Source: Hymenobacter siberiensis
GTDB lineage: Bacteria; Bacteroidota; Bacteroidia; Cytophagales; Hymenobacteraceae
Reading direction: 5' to 3'
NCBI RefSeq assembly: GCF_018967865.2
Contig: NZ_JAHLZY020000001.1
Location: 992,001-1,056,000, forward strand
DNA: 64,000 nucleotides
Part shown: piece by piece, positions 19,905 to 49,251 of the stretch
How the letters are laid out: every line of letters starts with the position of its first letter
Numbering within the stretch: the stretch's first letter is position 1
Notes under the pieces: generated by a model
What the model was told of the DNA's origin: nothing
What the model saw: only the letters and a program-made list of their open reading frames with translations
Database searches by the model: none
Position numbers and translations under genes: made by a program

Positions 19905-20127
19905 CTCTCCTTACCAAGGAGGGGACAATTTCGCGTAGCGAAAATTGGGATGGTGCCACCAGAGGGTGGCCGTTGAACAACTCGCGGCTGGCGGGCGCTG
20001 CCTCGGAAATGGGGCGTTCTGGCATCGTTCTGGCTTTGCGGCCAACCCGTTCAACGCCCACCCTCCCGTGGCACCATCCCCGTTTGCGCTGAAGCGCGAA
20101 CATCCCCTCCTTGGTAAGGAGGGGCGT
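19905..20127. repeat. Large palindromic element between rimK and the AstE-like gene
   Basis: The outer arms ctccttaccaaggagggg (from 19906) and cccctccttggtaaggaggg (20104-20124) pair. So do the next segments: aatttcgcgtagcgaaaatt is itself palindromic, and gggatggtgccacc meets ggtggcaccatcccc-like sequence at 20070-20084. A further inner match is gttgaac / gttcaac. It is a nested palindrome of over 200 nt without coding content, probably a mobile non-autonomous element. Confidence 0.7.
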
Positions 20128-38369: not shown

Positions 38370-39020
38370 TTAGTCCCGGGCCAGTTCGTCGGAAAGATGC
38401 ACGCGCACACCCCCGCCGTCATCCTCGGCGGCGTGGAGCATGGCGGCGGCTACTGTGGCCCCGGCCACGGGGCGGTACTTCAGCAGCGGGCCGCGCAGCA
38501 GCGGGCTCACCAGCCGTAGCACTATGGCCCCCAGGCGTTCGCCCAGGCGGGGCTGCGCCCGCTCGCCCAGCAGCAGCGAGGGCCGGAAAATATGAATGGC
38601 CCGGAAAGGCGTCTGGCGCACGGCGGCTTCCATTTCGCCCTTCACCCGGCTGTAGTAGATGGAGCTTTCGGCATCGGCCCCCATGCTGGATACCACCATG
38701 AACTGCGCGGCAAAGTTGCTGGCCGCCAGCGCTGCCAGCTGCACTACGTACAGGAAATCGACTTTGAAAAATGCCTCCTTCGAGCCCGCCTGCTTCATGG
38801 TGGTGCCCAGGCAGCAGTACACGTCGTCGGCGATGAGCTTTAGGCGCGCCTCATCCAGCTTGTCCAGCTCCGTGACCACCTGCACCAGCTTGGGATGGAT
38901 AGTGGGCACAGCCTTGCGGCCCACCACAATCACCTTGGTGTAGCGGTCCGAAGCCAGCAGCAGCGGCAGTAGTTGTGAACCAATGAGGCCGGTAGCACCG
39001 GCGAGGAGGGCGGTTTTCAT
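38370..39020 (-). CDS. NAD(P)-binding Rossmann-fold protein (NmrA/HTATIP2-like)
   Basis: 216 residues from ATG 39020. The Rossmann glycine motif GATGLIGSQLL stands at 8-18, followed by VIVVGRKAVP. YCCLGTTMKQAGS, MVVSSMGADAESSIYYSRVK with the YxxxK-like pair, and IFRPSLLLGER mark the atypical SDR group of oxidoreductase HTATIP2 relatives. Substrate unknown. A REP repeat begins only 3 nt upstream of its start codon, so its promoter may lie within or beyond the repeat. Confidence 0.85.
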   Translation of the reverse strand: MKTALLAGATGLIGSQLLPLLLASDRYTKVIVVGRKAVPTIHPKLVQVVTELDKLDEARLKLIADDVYCCLGTTMKQAGSKEAFFKVDFLYVVQLAALAASNFAAQFMVVSSMGADAESSIYYSRVKGEMEAAVRQTPFRAIHIFRPSLLLGERAQPRLGERLGAIVLRLVSPLLRGPLLKYRPVAGATVAAAMLHAAEDDGGGVRVHLSDELARD

Positions 39021-39022
39021 AA

Positions 39023-39118
39023 GTAGGGTGCGGGGCTTGCCCCCGCCCGTCGTTGAGCAGAGTCTACGCCATCCTGAAAATTCTGTTCGACGACAGGCAG
39101 GGGCAAGCCCCGTACTAC
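39023..39118. repeat. REP repeats on the 3' side of the RAYT gene
   Basis: The first unit (39023-39055) is the exact reverse complement of the unit at 40880-40912 (core gggggcaagccccgcaccc). A second, diverged unit runs 39088-39117 in the opposite sense (gacgacaggcaggggcaagc). The RAYT stop codon, TAG at 39115-39117, lies inside it. Confidence 0.85.
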
Positions 39119-39397
39119 CACCGATTAGGGTTGTCTATAATATAGCGTCGGTAGCTTTCCAGCTCGCTGGCGTCGCGAATAATCCGCTCGTAGTAATCAC
39201 GCTGCCAGCACGAAGCCGGTGCCGGCTGATTTGCGGCTAATAATTGCTTACGCCATTGGGTAAAGCAACGTGACTTGAAACTGCCCACGACCGCATTTAT
39301 GGCTACTACCTGATTGCGTGTCAGCACCAAAATGCAATGCAGATGATTTGGCATTAATATCCAGGCATCTAGTTTTACTGTGGGGAAATGTTCTGGT

Positions 39398-40602
39398 ACT
39401 CTACCCTACTAAAAGTCAGGCAAGGCAAAAAAACGGGGCGGCCCGACCTTTGAGGCTCCTACACGCTCAACTCGTTCCGCCCCATGAAGCAACGCCTCAT
39501 CGCCAAAATTACGACCGTTTTACAACACCTGCCGGTGGTGCGCAACCTGGCTCGCCAAAAGTTTGTGAGCCAGTTCATTATCGCGCTGATAAAAAGCCGC
39601 AACGTCCAATTCTGCGAGGTGGCCCAGCACTTGAACGATGCCGTCAAGTTGGCCTCGAACGAAACCCGGATTCAGGATTTTTTCCGCGAAACGGACCTGA
39701 ACTATCTGGTGCTGGCGCAGTTAGTACTGGGCCTGCTGCCGGCCCAGGGCAAGCTGCGCCTGTGCCTGGACCGCACGGAGTGGGATTTCGGCCAGTGCCA
39801 GGTCAATATCCTACTCGTGACCGTGGGTCAGGGCGCGTTTCACGTGCCCCTCTACTGGGAACTGCTCGACAACCGCAGCGGCAATTCCAACGCGGCTGAC
39901 CGCATCGCCCTGCTCCGGGTCTGCGTCCAGGTGCTGGGCAAAGACCGGATTGGCCTGGTGCTGGGCGACCGCGAATTCGTGGGCCATGCCTGGTTCAAAT
40001 GGCTCAAGGACAACGGACTGCCTTTTGTTATGCGTCTACCCCGGCACCACCTGCTCACTCACCCGAGTGGCCGCCGGCAAGCCATTACGGACCTGGGCCT
40101 GGCCGTCGGACAGACCCGGCGCTTCGCCCAGTGCCAGGTCGACGGGGTCTGGGGACAGGTCTGGGTCAAGGCCTTGACGGACGGGGATTTCCTCTTTCTT
40201 TTTGGCAACGTGGGCCTGCCGTACATGGGGCAGCTCTACGCCAAGCGCTGGACCATCGAGCAGTGCTTTCAGAACCTCAAAGGTCGGAGCTTCAACCTGG
40301 AGGCCAGTCACTTGCGCTGCCACCTGAAGTTGCGCAAGCTCGTGGCCCTGGTCAGTCTGGCGTACGCCTTTTGCCTGGGCGTGGGCACGGTAGCCGACCG
40401 GAAAAGCCAGCCCATCGGCCGCAAAAACCACGGCTACCGAGCCATGAGCCTTAGCCGACACGGCTTAAATATCCTGCGCCAGCTCAGCCGCCCCGGTACC
40501 GGGGCGGCTGAGAAGCTCGCCCGAATGGTGGAAACAGTATTGCGCTGGTTTTGCTGGCAAATTACTCGATATCAATTCACTAGAAAAATAGTAGGGTAGA
40601 GT
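39398..40602 (+). mobile_element. IS4-family insertion sequence, 1205 bp, inside the RAYT gene
   Basis: Perfect inverted ends actctaccctacta (39398-39411 and 40589-40602) and an 11-bp direct repeat aatgttctggt (39387-39397 and 40603-40613) frame it. The repeat length is right for the IS4 family. It carries one intact transposase, so the copy is potentially active and probably recent. Confidence 0.95.
39484..40599 (+). CDS. IS4-family DDE transposase
   Basis: 371 residues. An N-terminal helical region (about 1-95) is followed by the DDE core: LRLCLDRTEWDFGQ with the first Asp, GLVLGDREFVGHAWF with the second, and YAKRWTIEQCFQNLKGRSFNLE with the YxxxW..E..F motif and catalytic Glu. The insert between the Asp residues includes HVPLYWELLDNRSGNSN, typical for the family. 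Intact from ATG to stop, and the stop lies inside the right terminal repeat. Confidence 0.93.
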   Translation: MKQRLIAKITTVLQHLPVVRNLARQKFVSQFIIALIKSRNVQFCEVAQHLNDAVKLASNETRIQDFFRETDLNYLVLAQLVLGLLPAQGKLRLCLDRTEWDFGQCQVNILLVTVGQGAFHVPLYWELLDNRSGNSNAADRIALLRVCVQVLGKDRIGLVLGDREFVGHAWFKWLKDNGLPFVMRLPRHHLLTHPSGRRQAITDLGLAVGQTRRFAQCQVDGVWGQVWVKALTDGDFLFLFGNVGLPYMGQLYAKRWTIEQCFQNLKGRSFNLEASHLRCHLKLRKLVALVSLAYAFCLGVGTVADRKSQPIGRKNHGYRAMSLSRHGLNILRQLSRPGTGAAEKLARMVETVLRWFCWQITRYQFTRKIVG

Positions 40603-40822
40603 AATGTTCTGGTACAGCAGCTAATTCAAGTAGTGTGACTTCACCCAAGGAAGAATGTTGTAATGATTCTCCCGTTGCCAAACTGCCGAAAATATGGGCT
40701 TTGTTGTGTGCACAGATAGTCAGAGCATAATAGCCAGCCATGCTATAGTCATACCCATTGTATCGAATGCTACGGCGTTGCGGAGGTAATTCCATGAAGT
40801 GGTTTGCGGAGCTTGCTTTACT

Positions 40823-40912
40823 GTCGTTGAACGGTAGTAGTTGGCTCTAATTTAGAGCCGTATTTAAGGTTACCGTTCAACGACGGGCGGGGGCAAGCCC
40901 CGCACCCTACTT
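40823..40912. repeat. REP and hairpin on the 5' side of the RAYT gene
   Basis: The arms gtcgttgaacggta / taccgttcaacgac (40823-40836, 40871-40884) enclose a small palindrome ggctctaatttagagcc. A REP unit (40880-40912, core gggggcaagccccgcaccc) follows directly, and the stop codon of the next gene lies in its end. Confidence 0.8.
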
Positions 40913-41743
40913 CAACTGGGTTGCTTCCGGCTCCAGTAGCACTAGTCCCTGCCGGAATAGTGCCCCCAGGGCCTTCTTAAATACTTTTTTGCTCATGCCC
41001 ACGCGGCGGTACACGTCCTCGGCTAGGCTCTTGTCGCCCAGCGGCAGGCGGCCGCCCGGCGCGGCCTGAATGGCTTTGAGCAGCGTATCCGTCGCCGATT
41101 CCACCTCGCCGTAGCCTTCTTTTTGCAGGCGCACGTCGAGCTTGCCATCGGCTCGCACTTGGCGCAGGAAGCCGGATAGCTGCTCGCCCAGGCGCAGGGG
41201 GCGGAATACTTCGTTGTGGAACAGCAGCCCCTGGTGCGTGCCGTTCACAATGATGGGGTAGCCCAGCTCGGTTTCGTCGGCCACCATGATGCGCACCGCG
41301 TCGCCGGGCTCGCCCTGGAAAGGCTCGTTGCTGATGAACTGCTTCCACTTGGTGGAAGCCACGAGGCGGTCGCTTTCCTCGTCGAGGTACACGTACACAA
41401 ACACCCGCTCGCCGGTGCGCAGGTCGCGCCGCTGGTTGCGGAAGGGCAGGAGCAGGTCTTTTTCCAGGCCCCACTCCAGGAAGGCGCCGGCCGGGCCGTG
41501 GTCCTTCACCGTGAGGCCGGCGTAGGAGTTCACCAGCGCCAGGGGCCGCAGGTTGGTGGCAATGAGGCGGTCTTCCGAGTCGCGGTACACGAACACGCGC
41601 ACGATGTCGCCCACGCGGGTGCCGGCCTCCACGTACTTTTCGGGCAGCAGCAGGTCGCCGTCGTCGGAGGTGAGGTAGAGGCCGATGCTGGTTTCGCGGG
41701 CTACTTCGAGGTCGTTGTAATCGCCGAGGAGGAGGCTGGCCAT
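40907..41743 (-). CDS. cvfB: S1-domain RNA-binding protein, CvfB family
   Basis: 278 residues from ATG 41743 (MASLLLGDYNDLEVARETSI). Three tandem S1-like OB folds are visible: GLYLTSDDGDLLLPEKY, AGAFLEWGLEKDLLLPF and the segment around YPIIVNGTHQGLLFHNEVF. A C-terminal winged helix (YRRVGMSKKVFKKALGAL) completes the CvfB layout known from Staphylococcus and Streptococcus, where it binds RNA and affects virulence gene expression. The longer upstream frame is not used. Its TAG stop lies within a REP. Confidence 0.9.
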   Translation of the reverse strand: MASLLLGDYNDLEVARETSIGLYLTSDDGDLLLPEKYVEAGTRVGDIVRVFVYRDSEDRLIATNLRPLALVNSYAGLTVKDHGPAGAFLEWGLEKDLLLPFRNQRRDLRTGERVFVYVYLDEESDRLVASTKWKQFISNEPFQGEPGDAVRIMVADETELGYPIIVNGTHQGLLFHNEVFRPLRLGEQLSGFLRQVRADGKLDVRLQKEGYGEVESATDTLLKAIQAAPGGRLPLGDKSLAEDVYRRVGMSKKVFKKALGALFRQGLVLLEPEATQLK

Positions 41744-42040
41744 AGGGGGGAGTCTTAAGAAGTGAAGGGGCAAAGGTCGGGAGGAAATGAATTTGAGGCG
41801 GCTGTAGCCATTGTTGCGCTGCTGATTACGCCCCCCGCGCCCCCAGCCGCCCGCCGCAACTTCAAAAAAACGCTGATAATACCGTTTCATTCTCAGGCGG
41901 GTGGGCCAATTTGAGCCGCTGGAGGCAATTAATTTATAGCCTTATAGAATTTGTAGGGTATAGCAGGAAGCTGCGCGTGTGGCCCGGCGTGCTGCTTTTT
42001 CGCTCTCTCGGTGCCTTTCTCTATCCTAAAACCCTCCCAT

Positions 42041-47319: not shown

Positions 47320-49251
47320 TTACTGATAGGGTGCCGTGCCGGGCGGCCCGAGGCCGAAATCGTTGAACGTAACCGTTTCGCGGGTCGACTCAAACATTTT
47401 GATGCCGTTGGGCGTGGCCAGGCCGCGCGGGTAATAGCCGATGAGCAGCTGAAACGTGCGCAGGGCCGTGAACTCGTTGCGAAAGCGCAGGCCCAGGCCA
47501 AAGGCCGTGTAGGGCGAATTGTTGAAGGGCGTGCCGCCCCGGGGCTGGTCGCCCACCCAGGCCGCGTCGGCGAAGGCAATGCCGGCCAGCCGAAAGCCCA
47601 GGAGCGAAAGCGGCGTGAAAAGCGTGGTTTCGTAGTTCACCACGAAGCGGCTGGTGGCAATGATGGGCTGCCCCGGCGAAAACCCGCGCAGGCCCCGGTC
47701 GTTGGTGATGCCCTTAAGCAGGTCGCCGGGGTTGCGGTTCAGCCCGATGGTGCCCCGGCTGCTGAGGAAGTGCCGGTACTGCCAGTTGCCTATGTGGTAG
47801 AGCCTGGTGAAGGCCGTGAGTTCGGTGCCCAGCAGGCCCTGCTGCCACACGCGGGGCTGGTTCACGGTCTGAAACGACCCAAAGTCGACGGCTCCATAGA
47901 GGTAGCTGCCGCTGGCGCTGAAGCTGGCGGCCGCAATGCGCGCGTTGAAGTAGCGGCGCGGCAGCACACTGTTCACATCGTAGCCCGCCGTGAAGCTTAG
48001 CAGCGTGCCCGTGGGCACGTCCTCGGTGCGGCCAAAGCCAAACAGATACCGGGCCTTGTAATAGCGCCGCACCGAGTAGCCCACCGTGCCCAGCAGCAGC
48101 GTACCGTTGTGGTAGTCCGGCGGCGGAGCGTCGGTGGGTTGGGGGGTAACGGTGAAGTTGGTGTTGATGACGCGGGCCGCCACGATGATGCGCCCCGGGT
48201 TTTCGTAGCCCAGGTCGTAGGAGCGCAGGCGTAGGGCGCGGCCTATCCAGGCATCCTGCACATAATTACGTAGGGGGTATAGTACGTATTGCTGCCCAGC
48301 GGGCGGGGCCTGCAGGCCCACGTTCTGGTCGTAGGCATTGAAGCTGAGCGCTCCGGCGTAGCGCGTGCCGAGCGAATAAAAGTCGCGGGTGAGCGACACC
48401 CCGCCCGAGCGGTAGTTGTTTTCGTTGCGGTAGCGGGCCTGCGCGAAGAAAAAGTGCCGGAACGGGGCCGTGTAGCTGCCTTGGTAGGCCCAGGTCTGGG
48501 GGAGGTTGCGGCCGTAGCTATAGGAGTTGGCCAGCTGGTGGCCCTGGCCCAGGAAGTTGTCGTCGCCAGCCGTGATGACGCCCGACGTGGCCGTGCCCAC
48601 CTCCACGCCGGCCGTGATGCTGAACACGTCCTTGGTAAATACCTCAATATCAACACTATCCTGGGTAGTGGTGCGCTCGTTTACCAGCACGCGGGCATCC
48701 AGGATTTCGGGCGTCTGGCGCAGCAGGCGCTCCGATTCGGCCAGGGCCTGGGGCTCCAGCGCCTGGCCCGACCGAAACAGCAGCACCTGCCGGATGCGCG
48801 AACGGGACGTTTTGATGTGCAGCGCATTGCCGGCCTTCTCAACCACGGTGCGCGGCACCCGGGCCGAGTCCGAAAGGTTGTAGCCAAAGGCATCGAGCGT
48901 GCGGATGTTGATGCGCCGCACGATTTTGAAGTTGTGGCGGTCGAACTGCCGGTCCAGCAGCACGGCATCGAGGCCGGCCTGCTCCTCCTGGCGCCGCGTG
49001 AAGTTGAACAGGGCCGACGCCGCCCGGCCCGCAATGGTTTTGCGGCGCGAATAGGCCTGCAAGCGGTTCAGCAGCCGCTGCTCGTCGAAGCGCTGGCGCA
49101 GGGAGTCGGGCCGTTGGGGCAGGATTTCCAGCTTCGCCTTCAATGAGTCGGGTGGCACGGCCGAGCGCGGGTCAAACGTCTGCGCGCGCGCCGGCCCGGC
49201 CAGTAGGCCCAGCAGTAAAAACACAAGCAGGACAGGACTGCGGAAATTCAT
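47320..49251 (-). CDS. BamA/TamA-like outer-membrane protein
   Basis: 643 residues from ATG 49251, with signal peptide (MNFRSPVLLVFLLLGLLAGP to ARAQ). A helical/linker start (about 30-125) and one or two POTRA-like units (IRQVLLFRSGQALEPQALAES, DARVLVNERTT) lead into a barrel from about 205: VEVGTATSGVITAGDDNFLGQGHQL and many aromatic strands. It ends in VTFNDFGLGPPGTAPYQ, which is unusual for a barrel C-terminus. Probably inserts or translocates outer-membrane substrates, or is a surface antigen. Not the housekeeping BamA by size. Confidence 0.85.
   Translation of the reverse strand: MNFRSPVLLVFLLLGLLAGPARAQTFDPRSAVPPDSLKAKLEILPQRPDSLRQRFDEQRLLNRLQAYSRRKTIAGRAASALFNFTRRQEEQAGLDAVLLDRQFDRHNFKIVRRINIRTLDAFGYNLSDSARVPRTVVEKAGNALHIKTSRSRIRQVLLFRSGQALEPQALAESERLLRQTPEILDARVLVNERTTTQDSVDIEVFTKDVFSITAGVEVGTATSGVITAGDDNFLGQGHQLANSYSYGRNLPQTWAYQGSYTAPFRHFFFAQARYRNENNYRSGGVSLTRDFYSLGTRYAGALSFNAYDQNVGLQAPPAGQQYVLYPLRNYVQDAWIGRALRLRSYDLGYENPGRIIVAARVINTNFTVTPQPTDAPPPDYHNGTLLLGTVGYSVRRYYKARYLFGFGRTEDVPTGTLLSFTAGYDVNSVLPRRYFNARIAAASFSASGSYLYGAVDFGSFQTVNQPRVWQQGLLGTELTAFTRLYHIGNWQYRHFLSSRGTIGLNRNPGDLLKGITNDRGLRGFSPGQPIIATSRFVVNYETTLFTPLSLLGFRLAGIAFADAAWVGDQPRGGTPFNNSPYTAFGLGLRFRNEFTALRTFQLLIGYYPRGLATPNGIKMFESTRETVTFNDFGLGPPGTAPYQ

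Follow-up and report, generated by a model that had tools for sequence, protein, structure and literature searches.

A probable REPtron of Hymenobacter siberiensis with GTAG repeats, apparently inactivated recently by an IS4-type element

We investigated a RAYT transposase gene and its repeats in a stretch of 64,000 nucleotides (hereafter, the window) that covers positions 992,001–1,056,000 of contig C1 of Hymenobacter siberiensis (genome G000, 4.83 Mb). We found that the locus is very probably a REPtron, in which a TnpA-REP (RAYT) gene, assigned most likely to subclass 2.4, is accompanied by cognate GTAG REPs; the gene was recently inactivated by an IS4-type element. An earlier note, made from the window alone, had described a RAYT with REPs split by an IS4-type element, and this observation is confirmed here. 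Its interpretation is partly supported: the RAYT, the REPs, the recent IS4-type break, and the shared stop codons were right, whereas the supposed rarity of such systems in Bacteroidota was wrong.

Results

The RAYT gene, which is on the minus strand and divided in two, lies between a cvfB-like gene (40907–41758; S1 domain and CvfB winged helix) and, downstream of RAYT, an NAD-dependent epimerase/SDR-like gene (38370–39020; PF01370), both also on the minus strand. Its 5′ part (40604–40795, with the start codon ATG at 40793–40795) had no match in Pfam or NCBIfam by itself. The 3′ part (39115–39396), which includes a 79-aa open reading frame (39115–39354), carries the HUH motif NHLH, WQ, and the catalytic tyrosine in YIIDNP, and matched NCBIfam NF047646 (REP_Tyr_transpos) with an E value of 1.2e-13 and 51.2 bits, the cut-off being 80 and the protein partial. 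Against PF01797 (cut-off 23 bits), the 79-aa frame scored 22.9 bits alone and 25.3 bits in the genome search. When both flanks were joined by script with the insertion sequence (IS) removed, a frame of 154 residues was open from the ATG to the stop codon TAG at 39115–39117, which reproduces the frame proposed earlier. Motifs, profile matches, and flanking repeats likewise bear out the reading of the gene as a minus-strand Y1 (HUH) RAYT between REPs.

The gene is cut by an IS of 1,207 bp (39397–40603) with perfect 15-bp terminal inverted repeats, which encodes on the plus strand a 371-aa transposase (39484–40599; Pfam PF01609) scoring 169 bits against NCBIfam NF033591 (transpos_IS4_2; cut-off 152). 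With a DDE transposase above the IS4 cut-off, perfect inverted repeats, and a target-site duplication, the element has the features of the IS4 family, as had been claimed. The duplication (ATGTTCTGG, at 39388–39396 and 40604–40612), delimited by comparing IS copies and by the sister locus described below, is 9 bp and not the 11 bp first given: an 11-bp duplication requires an element 1 bp shorter at each end, with which the duplication vanishes (0 bp) at the three other copies, and the larger figure arose because one additional base per side matches by chance at the RAYT copy. At least four copies of the element are present in the genome, the other three differing from the RAYT copy at six positions each, and the ends TACTC...GAGTA with a 9-bp duplication were common to all four copies compared. 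A relative of the element (76–78% identity, 1.06–1.2 kb) occurs in at least 30 further copies on all three contigs of G000; these copy counts are lower bounds, with 40 of 101 candidates scored.

An uninterrupted gene, which the earlier note had suggested seeking in a close relative, was found in H. siberiensis PAMC 29290 (G072, locus L028). The protein there is identical at every residue to the joined 154-residue frame, and the locus matches both IS flanks exactly over 497 nt per side, the flanks overlapping by the single 9-bp target. The protein P0001, another relative, differs from that of PAMC 29290 at two residues. Because the sister gene is intact with identical flanks, the break, absent from PAMC 29290, is recent. 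The RAYT enzyme was almost certainly lost in the strain carrying the IS, in which the 79-aa remnant retains the HUH motif and the tyrosine without the N-terminal half.

The REP unit, GTAGGGTGCGGGGCTTGCCCCCGCCCGTCGTTGAACG, has, besides its GTAG foot, a GC hairpin with a bulge and an inner box. One unit (39023–39056, plus strand) has its foot (39023–39026) 2 nt away from the initiation codon of the SDR-like gene and forms a REPIN with a diverged unit (39088–39118, minus strand; foot 39115–39118). Another unit (40874–40910, minus strand; foot 40907–40910) stands at the end of the cvfB-like gene, with a remnant of the inner end of its partner REP (GTCGTTGAACGGTA, 40823–40836, plus strand), which is complementary to 40871–40884. 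The matching units that the earlier note had placed around RAYT were recovered as 36-nt arms at 39021–39056 and 40877–40912, which are exact reverse complements (100%), and between its diverged third unit and the first, a stretch of 34 nt (39028–39061 with 39082–39115) pairs at 85%. The note had also put the stop codons of RAYT and cvfB in the REP core; both stops do lie within REPs (39115–39117 and 40907–40909), but in the GTAG foot rather than in the hairpin core. Folded as single-stranded DNA, three REPINs had z-scores of −6.9, −11.0, and −13.1, whereas a lone REP was weak (−1.7). The sequence CGTTGAACG occurs five times in the window (8410, 20048, 40825, 40874, and 47361; 0.73 expected), two occurrences belonging to the RAYT locus and the one at 47361 lying outside any inverted repeat. 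A long palindromic repeat with arms of 42 nt (86%) and 19 nt (100%) spans 19907–20121, and repeats of its type also stand beside cvfB in relatives.

Among 20 aligned relatives of the protein, N78-H79-L80-H81 and Y146 were invariant, which answers the alignment check proposed in the earlier note; WQ and YI-(D/N)-NP were invariant or nearly so, and WQ....E...R was common to nearly all. A profile of the relatives, searched against solved structures, matched E. coli TnpA-REP (PDB 4er8) best (E = 2.7e-05), other transposases following at 0.0078 and worse. The sole NCBIfam match of P0001 was the equivalog NF047646, at 65.5 bits and under the curated cut-off of 80, and three other relatives were also under it (62.1, 54, and 67.2 bits). 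Of 134 relatives in named genomes, 80 were kept; eight of these, all Hymenobacter records, had at least 64% identity, whereas the remaining 72 came from many phyla and had at most 43%. The genome contains one RAYT of this clade, in two pieces, its other Y1 genes being of other types. The HUH motif and tyrosine, the inverted, recurring GTAG REPs on the flanks, and one gene per REP type, in contrast to a multi-copy IS, are all as in RAYTs. Three further Y1 genes (L006, L007, and L005, at C1 1597270, 1695470, and 2305611, respectively) each lie beside palindromic repeats recognized by reading; repeats resembling GTAGCGCGGACTTTTAGTCCGCG flank that of L007 on either side, and that of L005 has an in-frame TAG.

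By the published motif table (PMC6006769, seen in excerpt), the gene most likely belongs to subclass 2.4, the RAYT group 4 of Bertels et al., which is listed there with NH[IFV]H, WQ, YIxNNP, and GTAG REPs. The fit is not to the letter: WQ agrees, whereas NHLH has an L outside the subclass 2.4 set, D replaces the first N of YIxNNP, the protein is 154 aa long, whereas the table row gives 194 (a figure that is probably the median), and the gene has no REP inserted inside it. The HUH, WQ, and YIx-NP motifs, the gene-flanking GTAG REPs, the Bacteroidetes host, and the REP dimers are shared, and both canonical long GTAG REPs and, in the sister strain, the double-foot form listed for the subclass were found. 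Subclasses 2.5, 2.7, and 2.8 likewise have GTAG REPs according to the same excerpt, and the row of subclass 2.6 agrees with NHLH (NH[LIV]H), but its YIH[QN]NP does not fit. The E. coli REPtron is related in sequence, the W, Q, E, and R of WQ....E...R aligning, and the excerpt ties this segment to GTAG contact; it differs in belonging to subclass 2.2 with bulged REPs, and its H101 aligns with an R here.

Further REP copies, which the earlier note had proposed to search for, exist in the genome. A 30-base REP pattern with up to three mismatches gave 19 sites in 4.83 Mb and none when read backwards. The sites make up 13 places, at 11 of which a head-to-head partner (up to nine mismatches) is present, as in REPINs. 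Across 120 genomes of the genus, the pattern was found in 55, and the backwards control gave 0 in 120 of 120; it misses variants such as GTAGGGGCGGGG. RAYTs of the clade (E < 1e-60) occurred in 14 of the 120 genomes; that of G000 is broken by the IS, and that of G069 carries an in-frame TAG. REP sites numbered 2–157 (median 19) in these 14 genomes, whereas the median was 0 among the remaining 106 (Mann–Whitney p = 1e-8, with shared ancestry uncorrected), yet 41 of the 106 had at least one site (G058, 64; G079, 29; G092, 21; G095, 19). For the refuting conditions of the earlier note, no further REP copies or a unit shared with unrelated elements lacking any RAYT, the outcome is mixed: the REP does recur in the genome, but the repeat is present also in genomes without a clade RAYT.

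At all 13 other clade loci, visual inspection and a loose pattern each showed REPs on either side of the gene (a strict pattern did so at 11 of 13), and the flanking REP type varied with the RAYT (GTAGGGTGC, GTAGGGAGC, and GTAGGGGC). These loci occupy several different gene neighborhoods, and therefore the RAYT was relocated or transferred within the genus. In the interval between cvfB and the SDR-like gene, G091 has a REPIN without a RAYT match, and G042 has neither. A degenerate clade RAYT was sought by tblastn, with RAYT relatives as queries, between REPs of the REP-rich G058 (loci L065 and L068), and nothing below E 0.03 was found among the matches listed; a single distant RAYT is present at another position of this genome (34% identity, E = 1.3e-17). 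In the window and in the loci of relatives (L009–L266), the stems that precede the inner box GTTGAACG are of several kinds, such as ...CGCCCGTC, ...GCGTCTCGTC, and ...GGGGTGGTTGAGCC.

We then compared REP feet with gene ends. The sample comprised 52 distinct outer ends with an exact GTAG, drawn from three genomes, with every one of the 19 G000 loci, 10 of the 23 G020 sites, and 10 of the 64 G058 sites covered. At 17 of these ends, the foot TAG is the stop codon of the longest frame (at least 150 codons), although some such frames may be spurious; at another 17, the frame stops up to 150 nt before the repeat, no frame reads into it, and 18 ends lack such a frame. That GTAG ends often provide TAG stop codons has already been published (PMC3733652, excerpt). 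For six genes ending at a REP, orthologues were collected from the best 30 loci among 118 (cvfB), 102 (rtcB), and 77 (ureH) genomes with a match, and from 20 chosen genomes for trpG, argT, and a TPR gene; two rows (L169 and L214) were dropped, and relatives with a REP at the stop were set aside (four for cvfB and one each for rtcB, ureH, and argT). The same last residue as in H. siberiensis was found in 21 of 25 REP-free orthologues of cvfB (eight of the 21 ending G-TAG), 17 of 18 of trpG (four), 18 of 19 of the TPR gene (two), 8 of 17 of argT (one), 5 of 27 of ureH (one), and 0 of 28 of rtcB (zero). One argT relative counted as REP-free (L230, G020) has another GTAG repeat at its stop. This second GTAG family (GTAGAGACGC...GCGTCTC) stands at the argT end in L230 and in L229 (G009), and its foot gives the stop in G020. 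By these counts, the repeat in three of the six genes (cvfB, trpG, and the TPR gene) begins precisely where repeat-free relatives have their stop; some of these relatives already end G-TAG, and the ancestral gene end may likewise have had GTAG beforehand.

The sister strain PAMC 29290 also has 19 REP sites. All 13 REP places of G000 have a counterpart there, 10 by DNA and three inferred from position and pattern only. The REPIN at C1:1570454 of G000, one of the 10, corresponds in the sister strain (L349, C1 about 3923700) to a 44-bp double-foot GTAG...CTAC remnant with a central deletion. A central-deletion route to double-foot REPs was proposed in PMC6006769, and PMC3116915 reports such REPIN deletions as well as REPIN excision in sequencing reads (both seen in excerpt). 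One REP site of the sister strain (C1:900860) falls where G000 has other genes. Strain-specific REPINs were sought as a sign of movement within the species, and no clean empty/filled pair emerged; in the same comparison, which bears on the earlier note's suggestion that the system is frozen by the IS, no clear extra REPIN insertion was seen in the strain with the intact RAYT either. The rtcB gene of the sister strain (L119) has one in-frame TGA.

Discussion

The system is of a known kind, as described in PMC6006769 and PMC3733652. The expectation that a RAYT/REP system would be unusual in Bacteroidota was mistaken, since the excerpt of PMC6006769 already gives subclass 2.4, with GTAG REPs, as abundant in Cyanobacteria and Bacteroidetes and present in other phyla. 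The GTAG REP superfamily and REPtrons of Di Nocera et al. (2013, PMC3733652) share the GTAG foot, the imperfect GC hairpin, the head-to-head dimers, and the foot-supplied TAG stops; in its excerpted text, Bacteroidetes are mentioned once, under CGTC repeats. No paper containing both Hymenobacter and RAYT as whole words was found in our literature search. By analogy with the published model of relatives, the enzyme would bind the single-stranded REP hairpin together with its GTAG foot and would cut and rejoin the REP, spreading REPINs (head-to-head pairs of about 85–126 bp) through the genome; the biochemistry in PMC8266576 (excerpt) suggests that the cut may fall at a nearby CT or CA. In the strain studied here, the IS4-type element has recently inactivated the only clade RAYT. 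Its REPINs now remain as non-autonomous remnants that often provide adjacent genes with a stop codon.

We favor the REPtron because all 14 RAYT-clade genomes have at least two REP sites, with a median of 19 as against 0 in the other 106, and because the motifs are invariant, 4er8 is the best sequence match among solved structures, and REPs flank the 13 other clade loci. This reading is weakened because no REPIN movement was observed between strains, because REPs without a clade RAYT are common (41 of 106 genomes), and because P0001 stays at 65.5 bits under a cut-off of 80 and the RAYT of G069 has an in-frame TAG. The REPINs could instead be MITE-like elements moved by another enzyme, with the RAYT merely sitting among them. 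The 41 of 106 genomes that carry the repeat without a clade RAYT, G058 with its 64 sites among them, and the inner box GTTGAACG common to repeat families with different stems would suit such an arrangement, which we nevertheless regard as very unlikely, given that the 13 other clade loci have REPs on both sides despite several different neighborhoods and that the flanking REP type changes with the RAYT.

Alternatively, the REP may be retained chiefly because it acts in RNA as a hairpin or terminator at the gene ends that it closes, its mobility being long past. The 17 of 52 outer ends at which a foot TAG closes a frame (some maybe spurious) and the stability of REP places between the two strains agree with this. 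Few relatives, however, share the REP at a given gene end: 4 of 29 at cvfB (one of the same species and one degenerate), 1 of 29 at rtcB and 1 of 29 at ureH (both of the same species; one ureH row dropped), 0 of 19 at trpG (one row dropped), 1 of 18 at argT (degenerate), and 0 of 19 at the TPR gene. We therefore consider a role mainly at gene ends unlikely and retain the REPtron as the best explanation.

REPINs of this family may insert at pre-existing chromosomal GTAG sequences and take them as their own foot; we put this forward tentatively, as a somewhat doubtful proposal drawn from gene-end comparisons. The cvfB, trpG, and TPR genes suggest such insertion, and argT and ureH point neither way. 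The rtcB gene speaks against a strict GTAG-target rule: it is shorter here than in 26 of 28 REP-free relatives, most often by three codons, none of the 28 stops at its position, and no GTAG was there in the seven relatives inspected. Because rtcB contradicts it, GTAG targeting is not claimed for all six genes. Part of this stop-codon pattern would also arise if selection retained harmless insertions. The excerpt of PMC3116915 gives no target sequence for REPINs, "target site" in those of PMC2817692, PMC3686654, and PMC6006769 refers to IS200/IS605 elements or stands in reference titles, and we do not assert that GTAG targeting is absent from print.

The RAYT locus is in itself ordinary. What it offers is a natural comparison between two strains of the same species that share nearly the same REPIN set, the RAYT being intact in one and freshly broken in the other. 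In addition, repeat-free orthologous gene ends within the genus would allow the target choice of REPINs to be tested from sequence alone. In IS608, TTAC is the target motif. If REPINs did insert at pre-existing GTAG, an insertion at a gene end with a last codon ...G followed by TAG would keep the stop and leave the protein unchanged, and GTAG would be a target motif, like TTAC of IS608, in addition to the guide role that PMC8266576 (excerpt) proposes for it.
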